The position numbers and the translations under genes were made by a program. Of a stretch of DNA of 64,000 bases, positions 7,807-36,659 are shown piece by piece. The notes under the pieces are model-generated. The model saw only the letters and a list, made by a program, of their open reading frames with translations. It ran no database searches and was not told where the DNA came from. Each line of letters starts with the position of its first letter. The stretch's first letter is position 1. Source of the DNA: Cohnella sp. OV330 (GTDB lineage: Bacteria; Bacillota; Bacilli; Paenibacillales; Paenibacillaceae); assembly GCF_900112065.1 (NCBI RefSeq), contig NZ_FOKE01000002.1:432513-496512 (forward strand). The letters are read 5' to 3'.

Positions 7807-8607
7807 ATGAACCGTTGGCTGCTGCGCGCCATGACGGAGTTGTCTTCGCGCAAATTCATATCCCGCTTGACGGGGAGCTTCGCCAAATCGCCGCTGAGCC
7901 GGCGCTTGATCCCCAGATTCGCGGCATTATACCGGATCCCGGTCGAAGAAGCGGAAAAGCCGCTTGCCGAATACGCAACGCTGAACGAATTTTTTACCCG
8001 CCGGCTCGCGCCGGGCAGCCGTGCCATCGACGCAGCGCCCGATGCGCTTGTAAGTCCGGTGGATGCGCGAATCGCCGCCTGCGGACCGATCGAAAACGGG
8101 CTGCTCCTGCAGGTCAAAGGACAGGATTATTCGCTGGAGGAGCTGCTTAACCGCTCGCCCCGTACCAGTCAATACCGGAGCGGCTATTACTGGGTGTTAT
8201 ACCTCAGTCCGACCGATTACCACCGGATCCACGCTCCCTGCGCAGGCGAGGTCGTCGAGACCGAGCATATTCCCGGCCGGGTCTACCCCGTGAACGAAAG
8301 GGGGTTGACCTTGATGCGGCGAGTGCTCTCCCGCAACGAACGGCTCATCACCTATATGCGTCACGGCAGCGGCGAGATCGCGGTCGTTAAAGTCGGCGCG
8401 CTCAACGTCAGCAGCATTAAGTATGTAGAACCGCTCCCCCGTTCGCTCGAACGCGGCCAGGAGCTCGCCTACTTCGAATTCGGCTCCACCGTCGTGCTGT
8501 TGGCGGAGGACGACACCTTCCTGCCGCTGCCGGGGTTCCAGGCTGGCGATCAGGTCCGCGTGGGACAACTGCTCGGCACTTTGATCCCGGACCTAACGAA
8601 AGTATAG
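7807..8607 (+). CDS. psd: Phosphatidylserine decarboxylase proenzyme
   Basis: Makes phosphatidylethanolamine from phosphatidylserine. The proenzyme self-cleaves at a conserved Gly-Ser pair; the sequence has EFGSTVV with the serine (about residue 227 of 266) that becomes the pyruvoyl group, in place of the LGST of proteobacterial enzymes. DYHRIHAP supplies the active-site histidines and SPVDARI the aspartate. The ATG at 7807 is chosen because AAGGAG lies 10 bases upstream; an upstream in-frame ATG at 7783 lacks such a site. No pssA gene adjoins it. A long stem-loop follows. Confidence 0.95.
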   Translation: MNRWLLRAMTELSSRKFISRLTGSFAKSPLSRRLIPRFAALYRIPVEEAEKPLAEYATLNEFFTRRLAPGSRAIDAAPDALVSPVDARIAACGPIENGLLLQVKGQDYSLEELLNRSPRTSQYRSGYYWVLYLSPTDYHRIHAPCAGEVVETEHIPGRVYPVNERGLTLMRRVLSRNERLITYMRHGSGEIAVVKVGALNVSSIKYVEPLPRSLERGQELAYFEFGSTVVLLAEDDTFLPLPGFQAGDQVRVGQLLGTLIPDLTKV

Positions 8608-8613
8608 CTTCCT

Positions 8614-8690
8614 GAAGGGACCAACGCTAACTGCGCTAAAGGCGGTAAAATGACTTTCGCCGTCAGCGCAAAGGCTTTGGTCCCTTTTTC
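8614..8690 (+). terminator. Terminator after psd
   Basis: Long imperfect stem: GAAGGGACCAA at 8614-8624 pairs with TTGGTCCCTTT near 8677-8688, with extra internal pairing, followed by a short T run. Confidence 0.65.
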
Positions 8691-8738
8691 GTTGCTGGAA
8701 CGCGTCAGTACCAAACTCCTTTTCTCCCATTAACACGA

Positions 8739-8755
8739 TATCCCCTTCGCTCAGG
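8739..8755 (+). repeat. Dispersed repeat TATCCCCTTCGCNCAGG, copy 1
   Basis: TATCCCCTTCGCTCAGG, preceded by CCATTAACACGA. The same core recurs at 10168-10184 (inverted), four times at 37761-37921 and at 38105-38121 (inverted). It lies in non-coding sequence on the 3' side of the transposase gene. Confidence 0.6.
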
Positions 8756-8874
8756 TTGGCGAGGTTAGGCGAGATTAAGCGATCCAGGCGTTCAATCAAC
8801 GAAATTTCAAAAACAAAACGCCAAATACGTAAAAATGCACACGAAAACTTCGTTGCCGTTTCGCCCCTGTGCGT

Positions 8875-30910: not shown

Positions 30911-31726
30911 TCAGTGAGCCTGCGGCGTCTGGGCATGACGCGCGTCTTCGTCGTAGCGGCTGATCGCCGCTTCGGCGCGGGCGAGCCAATCCCCCGCCGC
31001 TTCGGCGACGGGCATGGCAGGCGATTGAACCGGTTGGCCCGTTTCCGCGGGCGGCGAGATCTCGGGCTGGCCAGCAAAGAAGGCGAGCCAGGCGGCATAA
31101 ATGCGTCCGCAAGCCCGAAGCAGCGCCGGTACGAACAGCATCAGGACGACGCCGATCCCGGAGACGACGAGCGATCGTTCGAAAGGAGACAGCGGCGGGA
31201 GCAGCATCCGCATCGTCGTATCGTCGTACAGGACGTAGCCGTACAGATAGTCGCTCACTTTGTAAGCGGCGGGCGCCAGCATGACCGCGAAGACGGACAG
31301 CGGCACCGTCAGCGAGATGACGAATAGCGCGATGCGGATCGGAAACCCGAGCAGTTGATGCGCGGCTGCGCGGTAGCCGAGCGGATTGCCCAGCGACCGG
31401 AACCAGGACTTCCATGAAGCGCGGGCCGAGCCGGATTCTACGCCTTGCGAAATCTGATGCGCGGGATACGGCTCGTCCTGCGCTTGTCCGCCATCTTGCC
31501 AGGCATTCCAGCGTCTTTGCTCGCGCCTCATGCGCGCGGCGCTCCAGGCCAACGTACCCGCCAAAATCGGGATACCGATGCCGACGATCGCCAGGCTCAG
31601 ACCGAGCGTGATTCCCGTCAGCGTCAGGACGAAGGCCGTTATGCCAAGCGGCAGCAGGCCGAGCTGCAGCTTCCAGGCCGCATAAGCGCTTGCGCGCGGA
31701 TTGGATTTTATCGAATTGGGATTCAT
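30911..31726 (-). CDS. Stand-alone 'putative sensor' domain membrane protein
   Basis: 271 residues. Two hydrophobic blocks (about 20-65 and 125-205) flank a charged loop; LGYRAAAHQLLGFPIRIALFVISLTVPLS and the following VMLAPAAYKVSD resemble the putative-sensor domain that usually precedes histidine kinases in actinobacteria and Bacillota. No kinase domain is attached. It starts 33 bases after the preceding minus-strand gene without a terminator between them, so it may be the last gene of the peptide operon, though its ribosome site (GAGG, 11 bases away) is weak. Confidence 0.6.
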   Translation of the reverse strand: MNPNSIKSNPRASAYAAWKLQLGLLPLGITAFVLTLTGITLGLSLAIVGIGIPILAGTLAWSAARMRREQRRWNAWQDGGQAQDEPYPAHQISQGVESGSARASWKSWFRSLGNPLGYRAAAHQLLGFPIRIALFVISLTVPLSVFAVMLAPAAYKVSDYLYGYVLYDDTTMRMLLPPLSPFERSLVVSGIGVVLMLFVPALLRACGRIYAAWLAFFAGQPEISPPAETGQPVQSPAMPVAEAAGDWLARAEAAISRYDEDARHAQTPQAH

Positions 31727-31759
31727 AAAGAAGCAACCTCGCTTTCCGAACCATTTGCT

Positions 31760-32254
31760 TCATTGTAGCAGTCGGTCCAAAGCGGCATCAGCGGCTGTGG
31801 AAGGGGATTCGACCCCGACCTCAGGCCAGGACGATCCCAGCCTCTCCATATAGGGAAGAAGTTCGTGGACAAGCTCAAAGCGTCGGCCTCTTCGGATCGC
31901 CAGATATGCGCGCTCCTTCAGCGCTCCCTTCCCGAACGGCAAAATATCCATCCCGCTCACCGGCCTGCGCCATGCGGCGCTCTTCATCGCCGCCAGCCAG
32001 GCAGGGCCGACCAGAACGACATGCCAGCTTCGCGGCGCCCGATGAATCTGCGCCGCGAATGCCGCTTCCGCGCCGGTCTGGGGCTGCACGACGAGCACGG
32101 CTTCGGGCTCGAAGCCCGCGACGGCGGCCGTCCGCTCGAACAGTTCGCGCAGCAAGTTATATCTCGTCTTCGCGGACCGGCGGTACGACAGCCATGCCAA
32201 AGCGGCGATCGCGCCGGCCAAAATCGCGATCGCCTCATCCGGTAACCTGCTCAT
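31760..32254 (-). CDS. Membrane-anchored protein of the peptide operon, unknown function
   Basis: 164 residues that I do not recognise. One N-terminal membrane helix (EAIAILAGAIAALAWLSY) is followed by a soluble alpha/beta domain with strands such as AVLVVQP and WHVVLVGPAW, which could be a cysteine-free thioredoxin-like fold (speculative). The ATG is embedded in the end of the mauE-like gene (about 20-base overlap) and has GGAGGG upstream, so translation is coupled. A longer frame to 32302 exists but adds only sequence from the neighbour gene. Confidence 0.65.
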   Translation of the reverse strand: MSRLPDEAIAILAGAIAALAWLSYRRSAKTRYNLLRELFERTAAVAGFEPEAVLVVQPQTGAEAAFAAQIHRAPRSWHVVLVGPAWLAAMKSAAWRRPVSGMDILPFGKGALKERAYLAIRRGRRFELVHELLPYMERLGSSWPEVGVESPSTAADAALDRLLQ

Positions 32255-32792
32255 CGCCGGCCCTCCATTCGCCTGATTCCTTTTGCAGCTTGCGCGCATC
32301 AAGCAGCCACACCGCGGACGCGACGGCTAACGCAAACGCCGCAAAGCCCGTGCCGGACGGCGCCGGCCGTTCAACGATCCAACCGGCTGCCGCGACCGCG
32401 ATGAATATCGCGTTGCGCAGCAGCGGGCGTCGGCTTAGCGGATGATTCGCGCCGAAGCATCCGCAGCTGTCCGCTCCGCCCGCTCCTTTTATCTCATTCC
32501 CAGCACGTCGACGGCGCCAGCTTAACCCGGTCATGCCCAGCAGAACGACGATCGCCGCTGGCTCCTTGAAGCCCTCCAGCGTACCGCCGGCAGCGAAGGC
32601 AGCCGCAAGCGCCCACTCCATAGCCAGCACCGTCCAAGCGGCCGTCGGCTCGAGGCGCGACGGCACCAGCCCGTATGCGCTAATCTCCATGCGCAGGTCC
32701 GTCATGGCTTGCGCCTTGCCGCATGCCGAAGCGGCAAAGACGACGGCCAGCGCATAATCGCACAACCAAGCGGCTTCATATTCCCAGTTCAT
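32235..32792 (-). CDS. MauE/DoxX-type redox-associated membrane protein
   Basis: 185 residues with four predicted membrane helices. It carries the family hallmark SCGCFG between helices 2 and 3, followed by PLLRNAIFIAVAA. MauE in methylotrophs is needed, with the thioredoxin-like MauD, to form the many disulfides of the methylamine dehydrogenase small subunit; DoxX-type proteins couple thiol oxidation to the membrane quinone pool. Here it follows a Cys-rich peptide gene and two thioredoxin-fold genes, so disulfide formation in that peptide is the natural inference. Start at 32792: AGGGGG 9 bases upstream. Confidence 0.82.
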   Translation of the reverse strand: MNWEYEAAWLCDYALAVVFAASACGKAQAMTDLRMEISAYGLVPSRLEPTAAWTVLAMEWALAAAFAAGGTLEGFKEPAAIVVLLGMTGLSWRRRRAGNEIKGAGGADSCGCFGANHPLSRRPLLRNAIFIAVAAAGWIVERPAPSGTGFAAFALAVASAVWLLDARKLQKESGEWRAGDEQVTG

Positions 32793-32828
32793 CGCTCTAG
32801 TCCCCCTCTCGGCTATGATTGCAGGAAA

Positions 32829-32857
32829 AAACAAGAAGCCGGGCTTTTCGCCCGGCT
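32829..32857 (-). terminator. Terminator/attenuator directly after the Cys-rich peptide gene
   Basis: AGCCGGGC-TTTTC-GCCCGGCT stem-loop 13 bases after the peptide stop; on the minus strand it is followed by TTCTTGTTTTTTC. It would let the short peptide mRNA outnumber read-through transcripts for the downstream mauE-like gene. Confidence 0.75.
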
Positions 32858-32869
32858 CCCGGCGCGTCG

Positions 32870-33073
32870 TTAAACGCAGCATCCGCCTTGCTGATCGCAA
32901 TTCACGTACGATACGTCGTAAGGCGCCGCCGTATTGGTGCATTGGACCGTCTTGTTGATCCAGTATTCCTTCGGATACGTCGTGCCGTTTGCGGAGCAGG
33001 TTTTGGCGACGCAGTACGTGTACTGCGGAATTTCGCCGTCAAGGATGTAGTTCGTCGGGCATGTGCAAGCCAT
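32870..33073 (-). CDS. 67-residue eight-cysteine peptide, candidate exported product
   Basis: I do not know this family. Starting at the ATG at 33073, which follows a near-perfect AAAGGAGGTGA, the peptide begins MACTCPTNYILDG and ends CDQQGGCCV. Cysteines are at 3, 5, 21, 26, 45, 59, 65 and 66: an even number, enough for four disulfides. Tyr, Thr and Asn are abundant; net charge is near neutral. There is no signal peptide and no clear double-glycine leader, so it could be leaderless. The gene overlaps the 3' end of the thioredoxin-like gene by 35 bases. A GTG three codons upstream is an alternative start. Bacteriocin, signal peptide or small metal/redox protein are the options. Confidence 0.75.
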   Translation of the reverse strand: MACTCPTNYILDGEIPQYTYCVAKTCSANGTTYPKEYWINKTVQCTNTAAPYDVSYVNCDQQGGCCV

Positions 33074-33515
33074 GTCTATCACCTCCTTTCAATAGCAATC
33101 CTTCGGCCAACCGCCTGATCTCGCGATCGTCGTGGACGGCGGCGGCTCGCGCGACCTTCCCGTCGCCGAGCTCGAAAACGGCCAGCGGGTAAGTTCGCAC
33201 GCCGAGCACGTCGTGCATCTCCCTGGCGTTCACGGGGAACACCGGGAACGTCCATTCGAAGTAGTCCGACATCTCGCGAACGTCGCGCGGATCTCCCGCG
33301 ACCAGCAGCAGAAGCCGATATTCCGGAAGGCTGGCGCTCGTATGGGCCAGATGCGGAAACAGCTCGATGCAATCGGCACAGTGAAGCGACGCGAATACCA
33401 ATAGCCGCGGCTCTCCGTTCGGTCCCGGAGCGCCTGCCCGCCTTAGTTCGGGAATCGTCGTGCCGGGCCGCAGGACGATCGGCGTTCGTTCGCCAGATTT
33501 TAGTCTCAAGCTCAT
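33039..33515 (-). CDS. Thioredoxin-fold protein with CADC motif
   Basis: 158 residues. LLVFASLHCADCIELFPHL carries a CxxC (Cys46, Cys49) after a beta-strand, and VRTYPLAVFELGDGKV has the cis-proline segment of thioredoxin folds. No signal peptide or membrane helix, so it should act in the cytoplasm or at the inner membrane face. The ATG at 33515 has AAGGAG 9 bases upstream; it lies 2 bases after the transporter stop. A MauD-like or thiol-disulfide exchange partner for the peptide is inferred from context. Confidence 0.78.
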   Translation of the reverse strand: MSLRLKSGERTPIVLRPGTTIPELRRAGAPGPNGEPRLLVFASLHCADCIELFPHLAHTSASLPEYRLLLLVAGDPRDVREMSDYFEWTFPVFPVNAREMHDVLGVRTYPLAVFELGDGKVARAAAVHDDREIRRLAEGLLLKGGDRHGLHMPDELHP

Positions 33516-33517
33516 CG

Positions 33518-35377
33518 TTATCCGCTCCTTAACGAAGTTAGTCGTTCGTGCAGCGCCTCCTGCTCCGACCAGACGCGGGCGTAACGCCCGCCGAGCGCCA
33601 GCAGCGTCTCGTGATTGCCGTCTTCTTCGATGCGTCCTTCTTCCATCACCCATATCCGGTCCGCCCGTCTGGCCAGCGCGACGCGGTGCGTGACGAGCAA
33701 CACGGTCTTGTCCGCGAACAACCTCCAGATTCCGTTCATCGCGGCGGACTCGCTAAGCGGATCCAGCGCAGACGTCGGCTCGTCCAACACGACGAGATCG
33801 GCGTCGGGATGCAGGAACAGCCTTGACAAGGCCAGTTTCTGCCACTGACCGCCCGACAAATAAATCGAGCGCCCATCCATCTGGCCGAGCGGCGTATCCG
33901 GACCGCGTCCGTCCGCCAGCTCGCCGAGGCCCGATGCCGTCAGCGCTGCGCGCAGTCTGGCGTCGTCCTTAAGCGCATCGCCATTGCCTGCTGCCATGTT
34001 CTCCCGCACCGTTCCTTGATAGCGGATGAAATCTTGAAACAGCACCTGAACGCGCTCAAACATGCTGTCTCGGTCGATCGCGCCTACAGGAATGCCATCA
34101 TAGCGGACGGGATCTCCTTCAGGCACGTACAAGCCGAGCACGATCTTGAGCAAAGTGGACTTGCCCGAGCCGTTGCCGCCCAAGATGGCGATTTTCTCTC
34201 CCCGGCTGATGTGCCGCTCCCCGATCTCGAGCGCAGGCTTGTCCCGGTTCGGATACGTATACCGCAGCGCCGGAAGGGCGATCGCCTTGGCGAAGACAAA
34301 AGGCTTGCCCCCGCCGCCTTCGCTCGCACCTTTTTGCGGCGGCGCGCAGCTAAGCGCAGCGCCTTCCAACGCATGTTTTTCATTCAACCGTTCCTTGGAA
34401 CCCCGCGCGGGTAAATCCGGCTCCCCGGTTCCGGACAGATAGGCGTGCGTCTCTTCGACTCCCGCCCAGCTCTGCAAGACGGACGACAGGTTGGAAGAGA
34501 TGAGGCTCATGGCCATCGTGACGGCCATGAAGTCGCCTGCTCCGAGCCCGCGTTCGCGGACGGTCCAGGCCGCGACGCATGCGGCTGCCGCATAGCCCGC
34601 GGCGGATATCGCCTCTCCCGCGAAGCCCGCCGACAGCTGCATCCGTTGGATGCGGGACAGAATCCCGTCCGAGACTCGCTTGGCGGACAGCCACCGGGCT
34701 TTGAAATAAGATCGCGAGCGGTACACCGTCAATTCCTTCTGCGACGACGACCCAGTCAGCAGTCCGTAAAGATACGAAGGACGAACCGACGCGCGATGAA
34801 GTTCCCCGTTCAGCATTGTCTTGCGGTTCACGAGCATCAGGTGCAGACCCCCCTTCAGGCATCCGACCGCGAAGGCTAGCGCGCCTACGGCGGGGTGCAC
34901 GCCAGACAAGTAACGGAATCCGAGGATCGCCGTCGCCAGCTTCGTCAGCAGTTGAGCGACCTGCGCGTACATCTCGAACGGCTTCGTTGCTGCGAATCGC
35001 CGCAAGGCAAGCCGTTCCTCATACTGCGGGTGCTCCTGCTCTGCCAAAGCGAGCGCGCCGTTCTCTTCGATCAGCTGCAATTCGCAAGCGTTCGCGTAGG
35101 CCAGCTGCATTCGGGACGTTCGGTATGAGGAAATGGCGTTCAGTCCCGCTCCTAGCAACTGGAGGCCCGCAAGCGCGGCTAGCGGCGGTATGAAGGCTGC
35201 GGCATCGCCCCCAACCGCGGCATTGACCGTTTGCGCCGTAAGGGCGAGCGTCCCGTAGGACTGCAGCGCATTGCCCGTCAGCATGGATACCGAGAGCAGC
35301 ACGCCCGCTTTGTCGAAGCGATAGATCCGCCAGGCGGACGCCAAAGCATCCCGTGCGATGCGCGCGATTTTGCTCAT
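33518..35377 (-). CDS. ABC half-transporter (TMD-NBD fusion), candidate peptide exporter
   Basis: 619 residues: about six helices in residues 1-300 (type-IV exporter fold), then an ATPase domain with GGNGSGKST, LSGGQWQK, LVVLDEPTSALDP and LVTHR. There is no C39 peptidase domain, so any leader removal would need another protease, which I do not see. ATG at 35377 overlaps the preceding stop (TGATG), i.e. coupled translation. A long Ala/Gly/Ser-rich linker separates the domains. Export of the adjacent Cys-rich peptide is the best inference. Confidence 0.85.
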   Translation of the reverse strand: MSKIARIARDALASAWRIYRFDKAGVLLSVSMLTGNALQSYGTLALTAQTVNAAVGGDAAAFIPPLAALAGLQLLGAGLNAISSYRTSRMQLAYANACELQLIEENGALALAEQEHPQYEERLALRRFAATKPFEMYAQVAQLLTKLATAILGFRYLSGVHPAVGALAFAVGCLKGGLHLMLVNRKTMLNGELHRASVRPSYLYGLLTGSSSQKELTVYRSRSYFKARWLSAKRVSDGILSRIQRMQLSAGFAGEAISAAGYAAAACVAAWTVRERGLGAGDFMAVTMAMSLISSNLSSVLQSWAGVEETHAYLSGTGEPDLPARGSKERLNEKHALEGAALSCAPPQKGASEGGGGKPFVFAKAIALPALRYTYPNRDKPALEIGERHISRGEKIAILGGNGSGKSTLLKIVLGLYVPEGDPVRYDGIPVGAIDRDSMFERVQVLFQDFIRYQGTVRENMAAGNGDALKDDARLRAALTASGLGELADGRGPDTPLGQMDGRSIYLSGGQWQKLALSRLFLHPDADLVVLDEPTSALDPLSESAAMNGIWRLFADKTVLLVTHRVALARRADRIWVMEEGRIEEDGNHETLLALGGRYARVWSEQEALHERLTSLRSG

Positions 35378-35853
35378 CAGACGCCGGCTTCGACGGCTCT
35401 GCCGTTCGCGCCCAGCGAGCGGGCATGGGCGGCTGCATCCAGCGTCGTATTGAACAAGCCCGATCCAACTGCGAAGCCATCGCGATCCAATACGATCATA
35501 AAAGGGATGATCTTGATCGGCGTTCGTTCTGCGACAGCCGAGATCTCGCATCGCTCGACGCGGCATGGGAACGGAGCAAGTTCCTTAGCGAGCAATTCGT
35601 GTTCGGCTTCGCTCGCCTCCGCGAGCAGCAGATAGTCAAGCTCGGGACGCTCTTCCATGAATCCAACCGCCGCATCCAAGTCGCAAGCCTCGCATCCCGC
35701 GCTCATCACGAACACGACCGCGCCTGATGCCGTATGCTGTAGCCATGACAATTCGGTTTCCTCGTCCCCGCTCCTCAGCGCGAGACGTTCGGGGAACCTG
35801 GTCCCCCTCGGAAATTCCGGGACGCTGCCGCGCATAAATTTCCGATATTCCAT
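35377..35853 (-). CDS. Thioredoxin-fold protein with CEAC motif
   Basis: 158 residues. VVFVMSAGCEACDLDAAVGF has a CxxC pair (Cys54, Cys57) and IKIIPFMIVLDRDG a cis-proline; two further cysteines (PCRVERC) could form a resolving pair. No membrane anchor. Equal in length to, but diverged from, the second thioredoxin-like protein of the operon. It ends in TGATG overlap with the transporter gene. Likely a thiol-disulfide enzyme for the Cys-rich peptide (inference). Confidence 0.72.
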   Translation of the reverse strand: MEYRKFMRGSVPEFPRGTRFPERLALRSGDEETELSWLQHTASGAVVFVMSAGCEACDLDAAVGFMEERPELDYLLLAEASEAEHELLAKELAPFPCRVERCEISAVAERTPIKIIPFMIVLDRDGFAVGSGLFNTTLDAAAHARSLGANGRAVEAGV

Positions 35854-35870
35854 CGTCGATCCTTCTCCTC

Positions 35871-36155
35871 TTAAATGTTATTTGCGGCAGCATAAGCGGC
35901 TTGGGGCTCCGCGCACCGACCGCCCGCCGCCATCTCCTCGGCTTTAAGCCGAATCAGCTCCAGCAGCTCGAGTCTCAGCGCCTGCTTCGCTTCATCCCGC
36001 GGCATGCGCATGAAGCGCGATAGATCGTCGATCTCTTGTTCGAAAAAGTCGATAATCCGCAGCTTGGCGACTTGGTCTCCATACCCGGCGGCCTGTACTA
36101 GTTGGCGGAGCTGCTCATTTGTCGGCGGAGCGCCGCGACCGCTCGCTGTTTGCAT
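35871..36155 (-). CDS. Small sigma-region-2-like / RsoA-like protein
   Basis: 94 residues. QLRQLVQAAGYGDQVAKLRIIDFFEQEIDDLSRFM... DEAKQALRLELLELIRLK has the helical pattern of sigma-70 region 2 (the 'GDxxAxxxLIxxFxxxI' beginning and the D-x-x-QxLxLELLELI end), as in the small Bacillus co-regulator RsoA. It lacks any region 4. It overlaps the preceding region-4-like gene by 58 bases. The pair looks like a sigma factor divided into two proteins, comparable to SigO-RsoA. The start has only a weak ribosome site (GGCGGTGA). Confidence 0.6.
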   Translation of the reverse strand: MQTASGRGAPPTNEQLRQLVQAAGYGDQVAKLRIIDFFEQEIDDLSRFMRMPRDEAKQALRLELLELIRLKAEEMAAGGRCAEPQAAYAAANNI

Positions 36156-36451
36156 TTGTTCACCGCCTGTTGCGTGATTCCCAGTTCGCGCGATACTTCG
36201 CGTTCTGTTTTCCCGTCCACGATCAGCTTCTGCATGACGGTTCTGCTTGGATACGATGGAATCGCCAGCAGCACCTCCTGCACGAAAAGCATGGATATCG
36301 CCTGATCCGCAGGCTCGCCCATATCGGTTCGCTCGGCCGCGGCGATCGCGAGTTCCCGGTTCAATCTGGATCGATTGCGATATTGCATGCGCCAGGCGGC
36401 TCGCGTCAGCCGCTGTCTAAATTCTGCGAACAAGGTCAACTCGTCGCCCAT
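36098..36451 (-). CDS. Small sigma-region-4-like protein
   Basis: 117 residues. The C-terminal half AIPSYPSRTVMQKLIVDGKTEREVSRELGITQQAVNKCKQRAVAALRR is a sigma-70 region 4 helix-turn-helix (ITQQAVNKCKQRA as recognition helix). The N-terminal 55 residues are helical and basic without a recognisable region 2. The ATG at 36451 has AGGAGG 6 bases upstream; the ATG two codons earlier abuts that site. First gene of the operon, directly behind the LexA-like box. Probably directs RNA polymerase to operon promoters together with the 94-residue partner (inference). Confidence 0.7.
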   Translation of the reverse strand: MGDELTLFAEFRQRLTRAAWRMQYRNRSRLNRELAIAAAERTDMGEPADQAISMLFVQEVLLAIPSYPSRTVMQKLIVDGKTEREVSRELGITQQAVNKCKQRAVAALRRQMSSSAN

Positions 36452-36512
36452 TCCCATCCTCCTTTAACCGCAGCGTATTTCCTTCTCATCTATGTAGGAG
36501 CCTGACATTCCC

Positions 36513-36542
36513 ATTATACAACCCAAAATAGAACATTTGTTC
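36513..36542 (-). promoter_or_regulatory. Promoter with LexA-like SOS box ahead of the split-sigma operon
   Basis: On the minus strand GAACAAATGTTC (36531-36542) is a perfect GAAC-N4-GTTC palindrome flanked by A and T, matching the Bacillus LexA/DinR consensus GAACRNRYGTTY. It covers the -35 position of a TATAAT (36513-36518) preceded by TG, an extended -10. This placement would allow LexA repression. Confidence 0.6.
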
Positions 36543-36659
36543 TCGTTAATTTACGAAGATTTTTCCTGATGCCGATTTCATTTGCCCATTTGCGGAGTTT
36601 GTCGAAACAATTCTAGTTCTATGAACGTCTAAATCAGTAGAATCGGGAGGGATATAGAA

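Follow-up and report, generated by a model that had tools for sequence, protein, structure and literature searches.

A minus-strand operon of the soil bacterium Cohnella sp. OV330 is, judged by its gene content, a laterosporulin-type cluster that carries a peptide with eight cysteines and a form of control specific to Cohnella. It lies in a 64,000-nucleotide stretch of contig NZ_FOKE01000002.1 (the window). The operon encodes two thioredoxin-fold proteins (trxA and trxB), an ABC half-exporter (abc), the peptide (pep), a membrane redox protein (mauE) and a candidate immunity protein (g8), preceded by a LexA-type box and two sigma-like genes (sigC and sigN). The assignment rests on the occurrence of the same genes directly beside the gene for laterosporulin, a leaderless, defensin-like class IId bacteriocin of Brevibacillus, and beside close variants of it. 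All elements listed by the original prediction, namely the box, the sigma-like pair, two CxxC proteins, the ABC protein, the peptide and mauE, were found. Its view that no described system holds the whole set is not supported, because this cassette adjoins a published bacteriocin.

Within the class, 13 of 398 genomes contain a match to a trxA profile, and six loci that were read (L075-L080) carry cassettes. At L077, trxA is preceded by the gene for a peptide that, in its mature form, is identical in 49/49 residues to PDB 4ozk, which is laterosporulin. L076 and L078 hold close laterosporulin variants, and L075 and L079 hold other cysteine-rich peptides with eight and six cysteines, respectively. 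The order is pep-trxA-abc-trxB-mauE-g8-DUF6941-like except at L080, where the peptides and abc are placed after the other genes, and at L079, where neither mauE nor g8 was found at the locus. L080 is a second cluster in the laterosporulin genome of L077 (G549) and encodes three tandem eight-cysteine peptides. The ABC protein of the window finds its best match in the cassette ABC in all five genomes given, over 17-25 other ABC matches; in two of the five, the runner-up is again a cassette ABC, from a second such region (the G485 region was not read). The peptides themselves are less obviously related. Aligned directly with hhalign, the eight-cysteine family and laterosporulin gave weak values of 3% and 9%, while a stepwise comparison linked the family to the L080 peptides (P 2e-4) and these to laterosporulin (P 1.3e-3). 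Because direct similarity is weak, kinship with laterosporulin rests on the common machinery beside the peptide gene and on the leaderless Met-Ala-Cys start, which the reading frames of both share and which extends to Met-Ala-Cys-x-Cys-Pro.

The published laterosporulin account reports that the methionine is removed and that the ABC transporter is without a protease domain; besides a regulator and this transporter, it lists only a hypothetical protein and a dehydrogenase for the locus (PMC3293901). We infer that this dehydrogenase is the MauD-like trxB. Another source describes its laterosporulin and lactococcin clusters as having two transporters, a regulator and a hypothetical protein (PMC6510442). 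Among the matches listed, no open-access paper showed laterosporulin and MauE together. The Cohnella operon differs from the laterosporulin clusters in that its peptide has eight rather than six cysteines, ends in CC and has no significant direct sequence match to laterosporulin. In Cohnella, pep stands between trxB and mauE, whereas the laterosporulin gene comes first. The LexA-type box and the sigma-like pair are Cohnella features, and the DUF6941-like gene of the laterosporulin clusters was not found in the seven Cohnella cassettes.

The cassette is conserved, as the original prediction had proposed to check. The gene order trxA-abc-trxB-pep-mauE-g8 is constant at 22 loci, comprising seven in Cohnella (the window and L012-L017) and 15 in other Paenibacillales (L018, L019 and L045-L057); g8 of L018 was detected by profile only. 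The 15 non-Cohnella loci carry the DUF6941-like gene between pep and mauE, with its longest frame at L054 beginning before pep. A search with pep found it in 9 of 100 genomes, own genome included, that is 7 of 37 Cohnella genomes and two of another family, and a profile search across the order recovered it in 16 of 392 genomes, again counting its own. At L012 and L014, abc and vanY are split into frames, as is sigN at L014, reflecting sequencing error or decay. Seven loci of other Bacilli (L081-L087) have mauE beside one thioredoxin-type gene; the peptide, g8 and the DUF6941-like gene were not found there.

The peptide gene (32870..33073, minus strand) encodes a leaderless product of 67 residues with eight cysteines that starts M-ACTCP. 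In the first eight sequences aligned, none of the eight cysteines varies. Across 16 diverse members, the first and the last six cysteine columns are invariant and the second cysteine shifts. The ratio of nonsynonymous to synonymous substitution rates (dN/dS) is 0.10-0.17 in all four Cohnella pairs, so the frame passes the test of purifying selection on which the original prediction had staked it. L019 carries the eight-cysteine peptide gene in three tandem copies with the same product (8163-8837). An intrinsic-terminator-like hairpin (32834..32860, minus strand) lies directly 3' of pep and 5' of mauE. Of the 22 eight-cysteine loci, 21 have an equivalent hairpin behind the peptide gene, compared with 18 of 220 dinucleotide shuffles. 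At L019 it is found only behind the last of the three copies, and L017 has a shorter hairpin with four T visible. Just two of the six loci L075-L080 have one.

All other genes of the operon also lie on the minus strand. The abc gene (33518..35377; PF00005, E 1e-23) encodes a half-exporter without a peptidase domain. The pairs sigC/sigN, trxA/abc, trxB/pep and mauE/g8 overlap. Spacers of 17 nt and 2 nt precede trxA and trxB, respectively, and one of 77 nt, which holds the hairpin, separates pep from mauE. The genes had been described as overlapping or coupled throughout; most do overlap or nearly abut, but the space between pep and mauE is an exception.

TrxA (35377..35853) has no Pfam match of its own. 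It is assigned to the thioredoxin fold by alignment, with a CxxC motif and one further cysteine conserved in ten aligned sequences, and by its relationship to TrxB (hhalign, 97.7%). TrxB (33039..33515) is a MauD/ResA-like protein with a CxxC motif and weak thioredoxin and MauD matches. Its relative in L019 matches MauD TIGR02661 at 7e-9, under the curated cut-off, and among structures, StoA and ResA are matched by the trxB profile. MauE (32235..32792) is identified by PF07291 (E 2.7e-21), alignment and topology, and its CxC motif is kept in 15 of 15 members aligned. By hydropathy, with no dedicated signal-peptide program, an N-terminal hydrophobic segment is found in 0/10 TrxA and 0/10 TrxB proteins, and in 10/10 MauE and 11/11 g8 proteins. 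MauE has 5-8 lysine or arginine residues in the stretch holding the CxC loop, compared with 0-2 in the loop after the next helix (four helices were called by script, the third being placed by eye). Given this enrichment, the CxC loop is predicted to be cytosolic. Together with the missing N-terminal segments of TrxA and TrxB, the predicted topology suggests that disulfide chemistry takes place in the cytosol, ahead of export.

A palindromic LexA/DinR-type box, GAACAAATGTTC, lies at 36531..36542 on the minus strand, 12 nt before TATAAT. It is the sole match to the pattern GAACRNRYGTTC in the window (0.26 expected), and at least one match arose in 18 of 100 shuffles of the window; the window match alone is thus weak evidence. 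The box is, moreover, present at all seven Cohnella cassettes, the L014 copy having one base changed between the half-sites. In the same genome, the identical 12-mer also precedes recA (by 60 bp), a Y-family polymerase gene (by 238 bp) and a DUF896 gene (by 90 bp). Across the genome there are 49 strand matches to the pattern, a palindromic site counting once per strand, and 17 to a reversed control; some of the sites are therefore due to chance. The LexA-like box of the original prediction is real, conserved at the promoter in Cohnella and common to recA of the same genome. This SOS-type box is a feature of the Cohnella cassettes, as it occurs at 0/21 non-Cohnella loci (the scan reached 1500 bp upstream and 500 bp downstream). 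On the strength of the box, LexA would bind this promoter and DNA damage would induce the operon.

Other genes of the strain also carry such boxes. Four IS1595-type transposase zinc ribbon genes (L088, L097, L102 and L106) have a GAACAAA(T/C)GTTC box at position 1501 of each locus, at most 37 bp from the gene start or overlapping it, suggesting that transposition may be under LexA control. A Vsr mismatch-endonuclease gene (L101:169-635) has a LexA-type box 26 bp upstream.

The first two genes behind the box encode small proteins. SigC (36098..36457, 119 aa) is a sigma region-4-like DNA-binding protein, kept in all seven Cohnella cassettes, with TIGR02937 (E 9e-6) and Pfam Sigma70_r4 matches that are all under curated cut-offs and a KORA match just over its cut-off. 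SigN (35871..36155, 94 aa) is an HTH_16-like partner protein (PF12645, 21.1 bits, cut-off 22). A PDB profile search gave a single, unrelated-looking chain for SigC and no match up to E 1 for SigN, and PHROGs matches for the pair are weak. Significant region 4 and region 2 domains would mark a split sigma factor; the pair gave sub-threshold matches alone and is weak by family search. SigN, the partner of SigC, may be the other half of a split sigma factor.

We propose that the cassette probably makes and exports a leaderless eight-cysteine bacteriocin under LexA control, with oxidation at the cytosolic face. The model builds on the genes present and their conservation, their position beside the laterosporulin gene, the box and its counterpart at recA, selection on the peptide and cassette-free sites. 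LexA would repress the operon promoter. Upon DNA damage, the two sigma-like proteins would be made and would probably boost transcription of the operon. The peptide would then be produced in quantity, while the terminator after pep would limit read-through into mauE and g8. TrxA, TrxB and MauE would act on the peptide cysteines and most likely join them in four disulfides at the cytosolic membrane face, the electrons going from MauE to the quinone pool. A homodimer of the ABC half-exporter would release the folded peptide, with the methionine alone removed, as a bacteriocin that could kill other cells. The g8 product would serve as the immunity protein.

The direction of the redox chemistry could be the reverse, with the thioredoxin-like proteins keeping the peptide reduced and export-competent until disulfides form outside through air or general oxidases. 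Cytosolic thioredoxins usually reduce, TrxA and TrxB are probably cytosolic given their N-termini, and MauE could relay reducing power instead of oxidising. We nevertheless regard this reading as somewhat unlikely, since ordinary cytosolic reduction would not call for the additional electron sink or source that a dedicated MauE with an invariant CxC represents, and MauE has been speculated to aid disulfide formation in methylamine dehydrogenase (as told in the accessible part of PMC7794033). A different function is unlikely as well, namely that the peptide is a disulfide-rich signal or a protective extracellular peptide of stress and not an antimicrobial. Within the Cohnella subclade the peptide is under strong purifying selection, which, like its acidic isoelectric point, would suit such a role, and we know of no activity for any eight-cysteine member. 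The machinery, however, is shared with the bacteriocin laterosporulin, and the diverse peptide sequences, the tandem copies (three each in L019 and L080) and the patchy presence within Cohnella are features that fit bacteriocins.

It is also conceivable that the palindrome is recognised not by LexA but by the sigma-like pair or another repressor, leaving the operon outside SOS control. Among cassettes, the box and the pair do co-occur, and only in Cohnella. This seems very unlikely, though, as the identical 12-mer stands before recA and the polymerase gene and near the DUF896 gene, and 0/25 box loci read in the strain's own genome hold the sigma-like pair. Beyond the LexA-controlled bacteriocin cassette that we favor, a broader idea is put forward tentatively. 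One dedicated machine may serve both the laterosporulins and a wider family of leaderless disulfide peptides, with two cytosolic thioredoxin-fold proteins and an inward-facing MauE making several disulfides at the cytosolic side of the membrane before the folded peptide is exported by it; in Cohnella, this would be a travelling cassette with its own LexA box and a two-protein sigma-like switch.

Several known systems resemble parts of the operon. It shares a MauE membrane protein and a MauD-like thioredoxin protein with methylamine utilisation, the MauD match coming from a relative and falling below the curated cut-off. Unlike that system, the operon and adjacent genes hold no other mau gene (no methylamine dehydrogenase structural gene among the ten proteins scanned), and the Cohnella thioredoxin proteins are without an N-terminal hydrophobic segment. 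UviA-type sigma factors of clostridial bacteriocins likewise join a sigma-like regulator, a bacteriocin context and a link to DNA damage, but Cohnella has two small, weakly sigma-like proteins that come first in the same operon. The sublancin cluster has dedicated thiol-disulfide genes, BdbA and BdbB; its product, a glycocin, has a leader, unlike the leaderless Cohnella peptide. Predicted Streptomyces clusters for ribosomally synthesized and post-translationally modified peptides, found by decRiPPter, place mauE in three families, one also with mauD, beside precursors with at least eight cysteines; by the description available they belong to another phylum and are prediction only (PMC7794033). 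A thioredoxin-domain protein was hypothesised to help disulfide formation in the bactofencin A cluster, where the available description names one such protein and does not mention MauE (PMC7616364).

What appears new is a fuller gene set for the laterosporulin system, whose neighbors now fall within a conserved MauD/MauE-type cassette tied to 22 loci of eight-cysteine peptides, and a variant linked to a LexA box, with functions predicted from sequence. No description of the peptides at the 22 loci was found among the matches listed in the open-access literature. Heterologous expression of laterosporulin fragments of ~6.7 kb failed, and the same failure is cited for a 4-kb fragment (PMC6510442, accessible part). 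By our reading of what that source gives, the 4-kb fragment ends after trxB, without mauE, g8 and the DUF6941-like gene. An incomplete cassette can explain at most the 4-kb failure. The defined cassette makes this idea testable and offers a source of new disulfide-rich antimicrobials, and it is a direct test case for MauE-driven disulfide formation in the bacterial cytosol.

The PF13796 'sensor' gene (30911..31726) downstream of g8 lies within the range given by the original prediction. In five cassette-free Cohnella relatives (L115-L119), vanY adjoins the sensor gene and no cassette gene was found, so the sensor gene belongs to the flank. In the closest of these relatives (G018), only ~0.2 kb separates vanY from the sensor gene, and the flanking sequence agrees with that of the window up to ~36588 and from ~31850. 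Comparison with this junction places the cassette at 31850..36588, both ends being approximate, and favors its insertion over a loss in G018. At L017 (G022), neither vanY nor the sensor gene adjoins the cassette; its neighborhood differs, as a sensor relative lies ~10 kb off on the cassette contig and the best match to vanY is on a different one. The g8 gene (31760..32254), recognised by alignment, encodes an N-terminal membrane helix and a soluble domain. In the junction alignment, g8 of L016 stops earlier and is followed by the same flank sequence as in the window, so the last ~28 codons of the window g8 are flank DNA. It is the least constrained cassette gene in three of four Cohnella pairs (dN/dS 0.27-0.55), with mauE slightly higher in the fourth.

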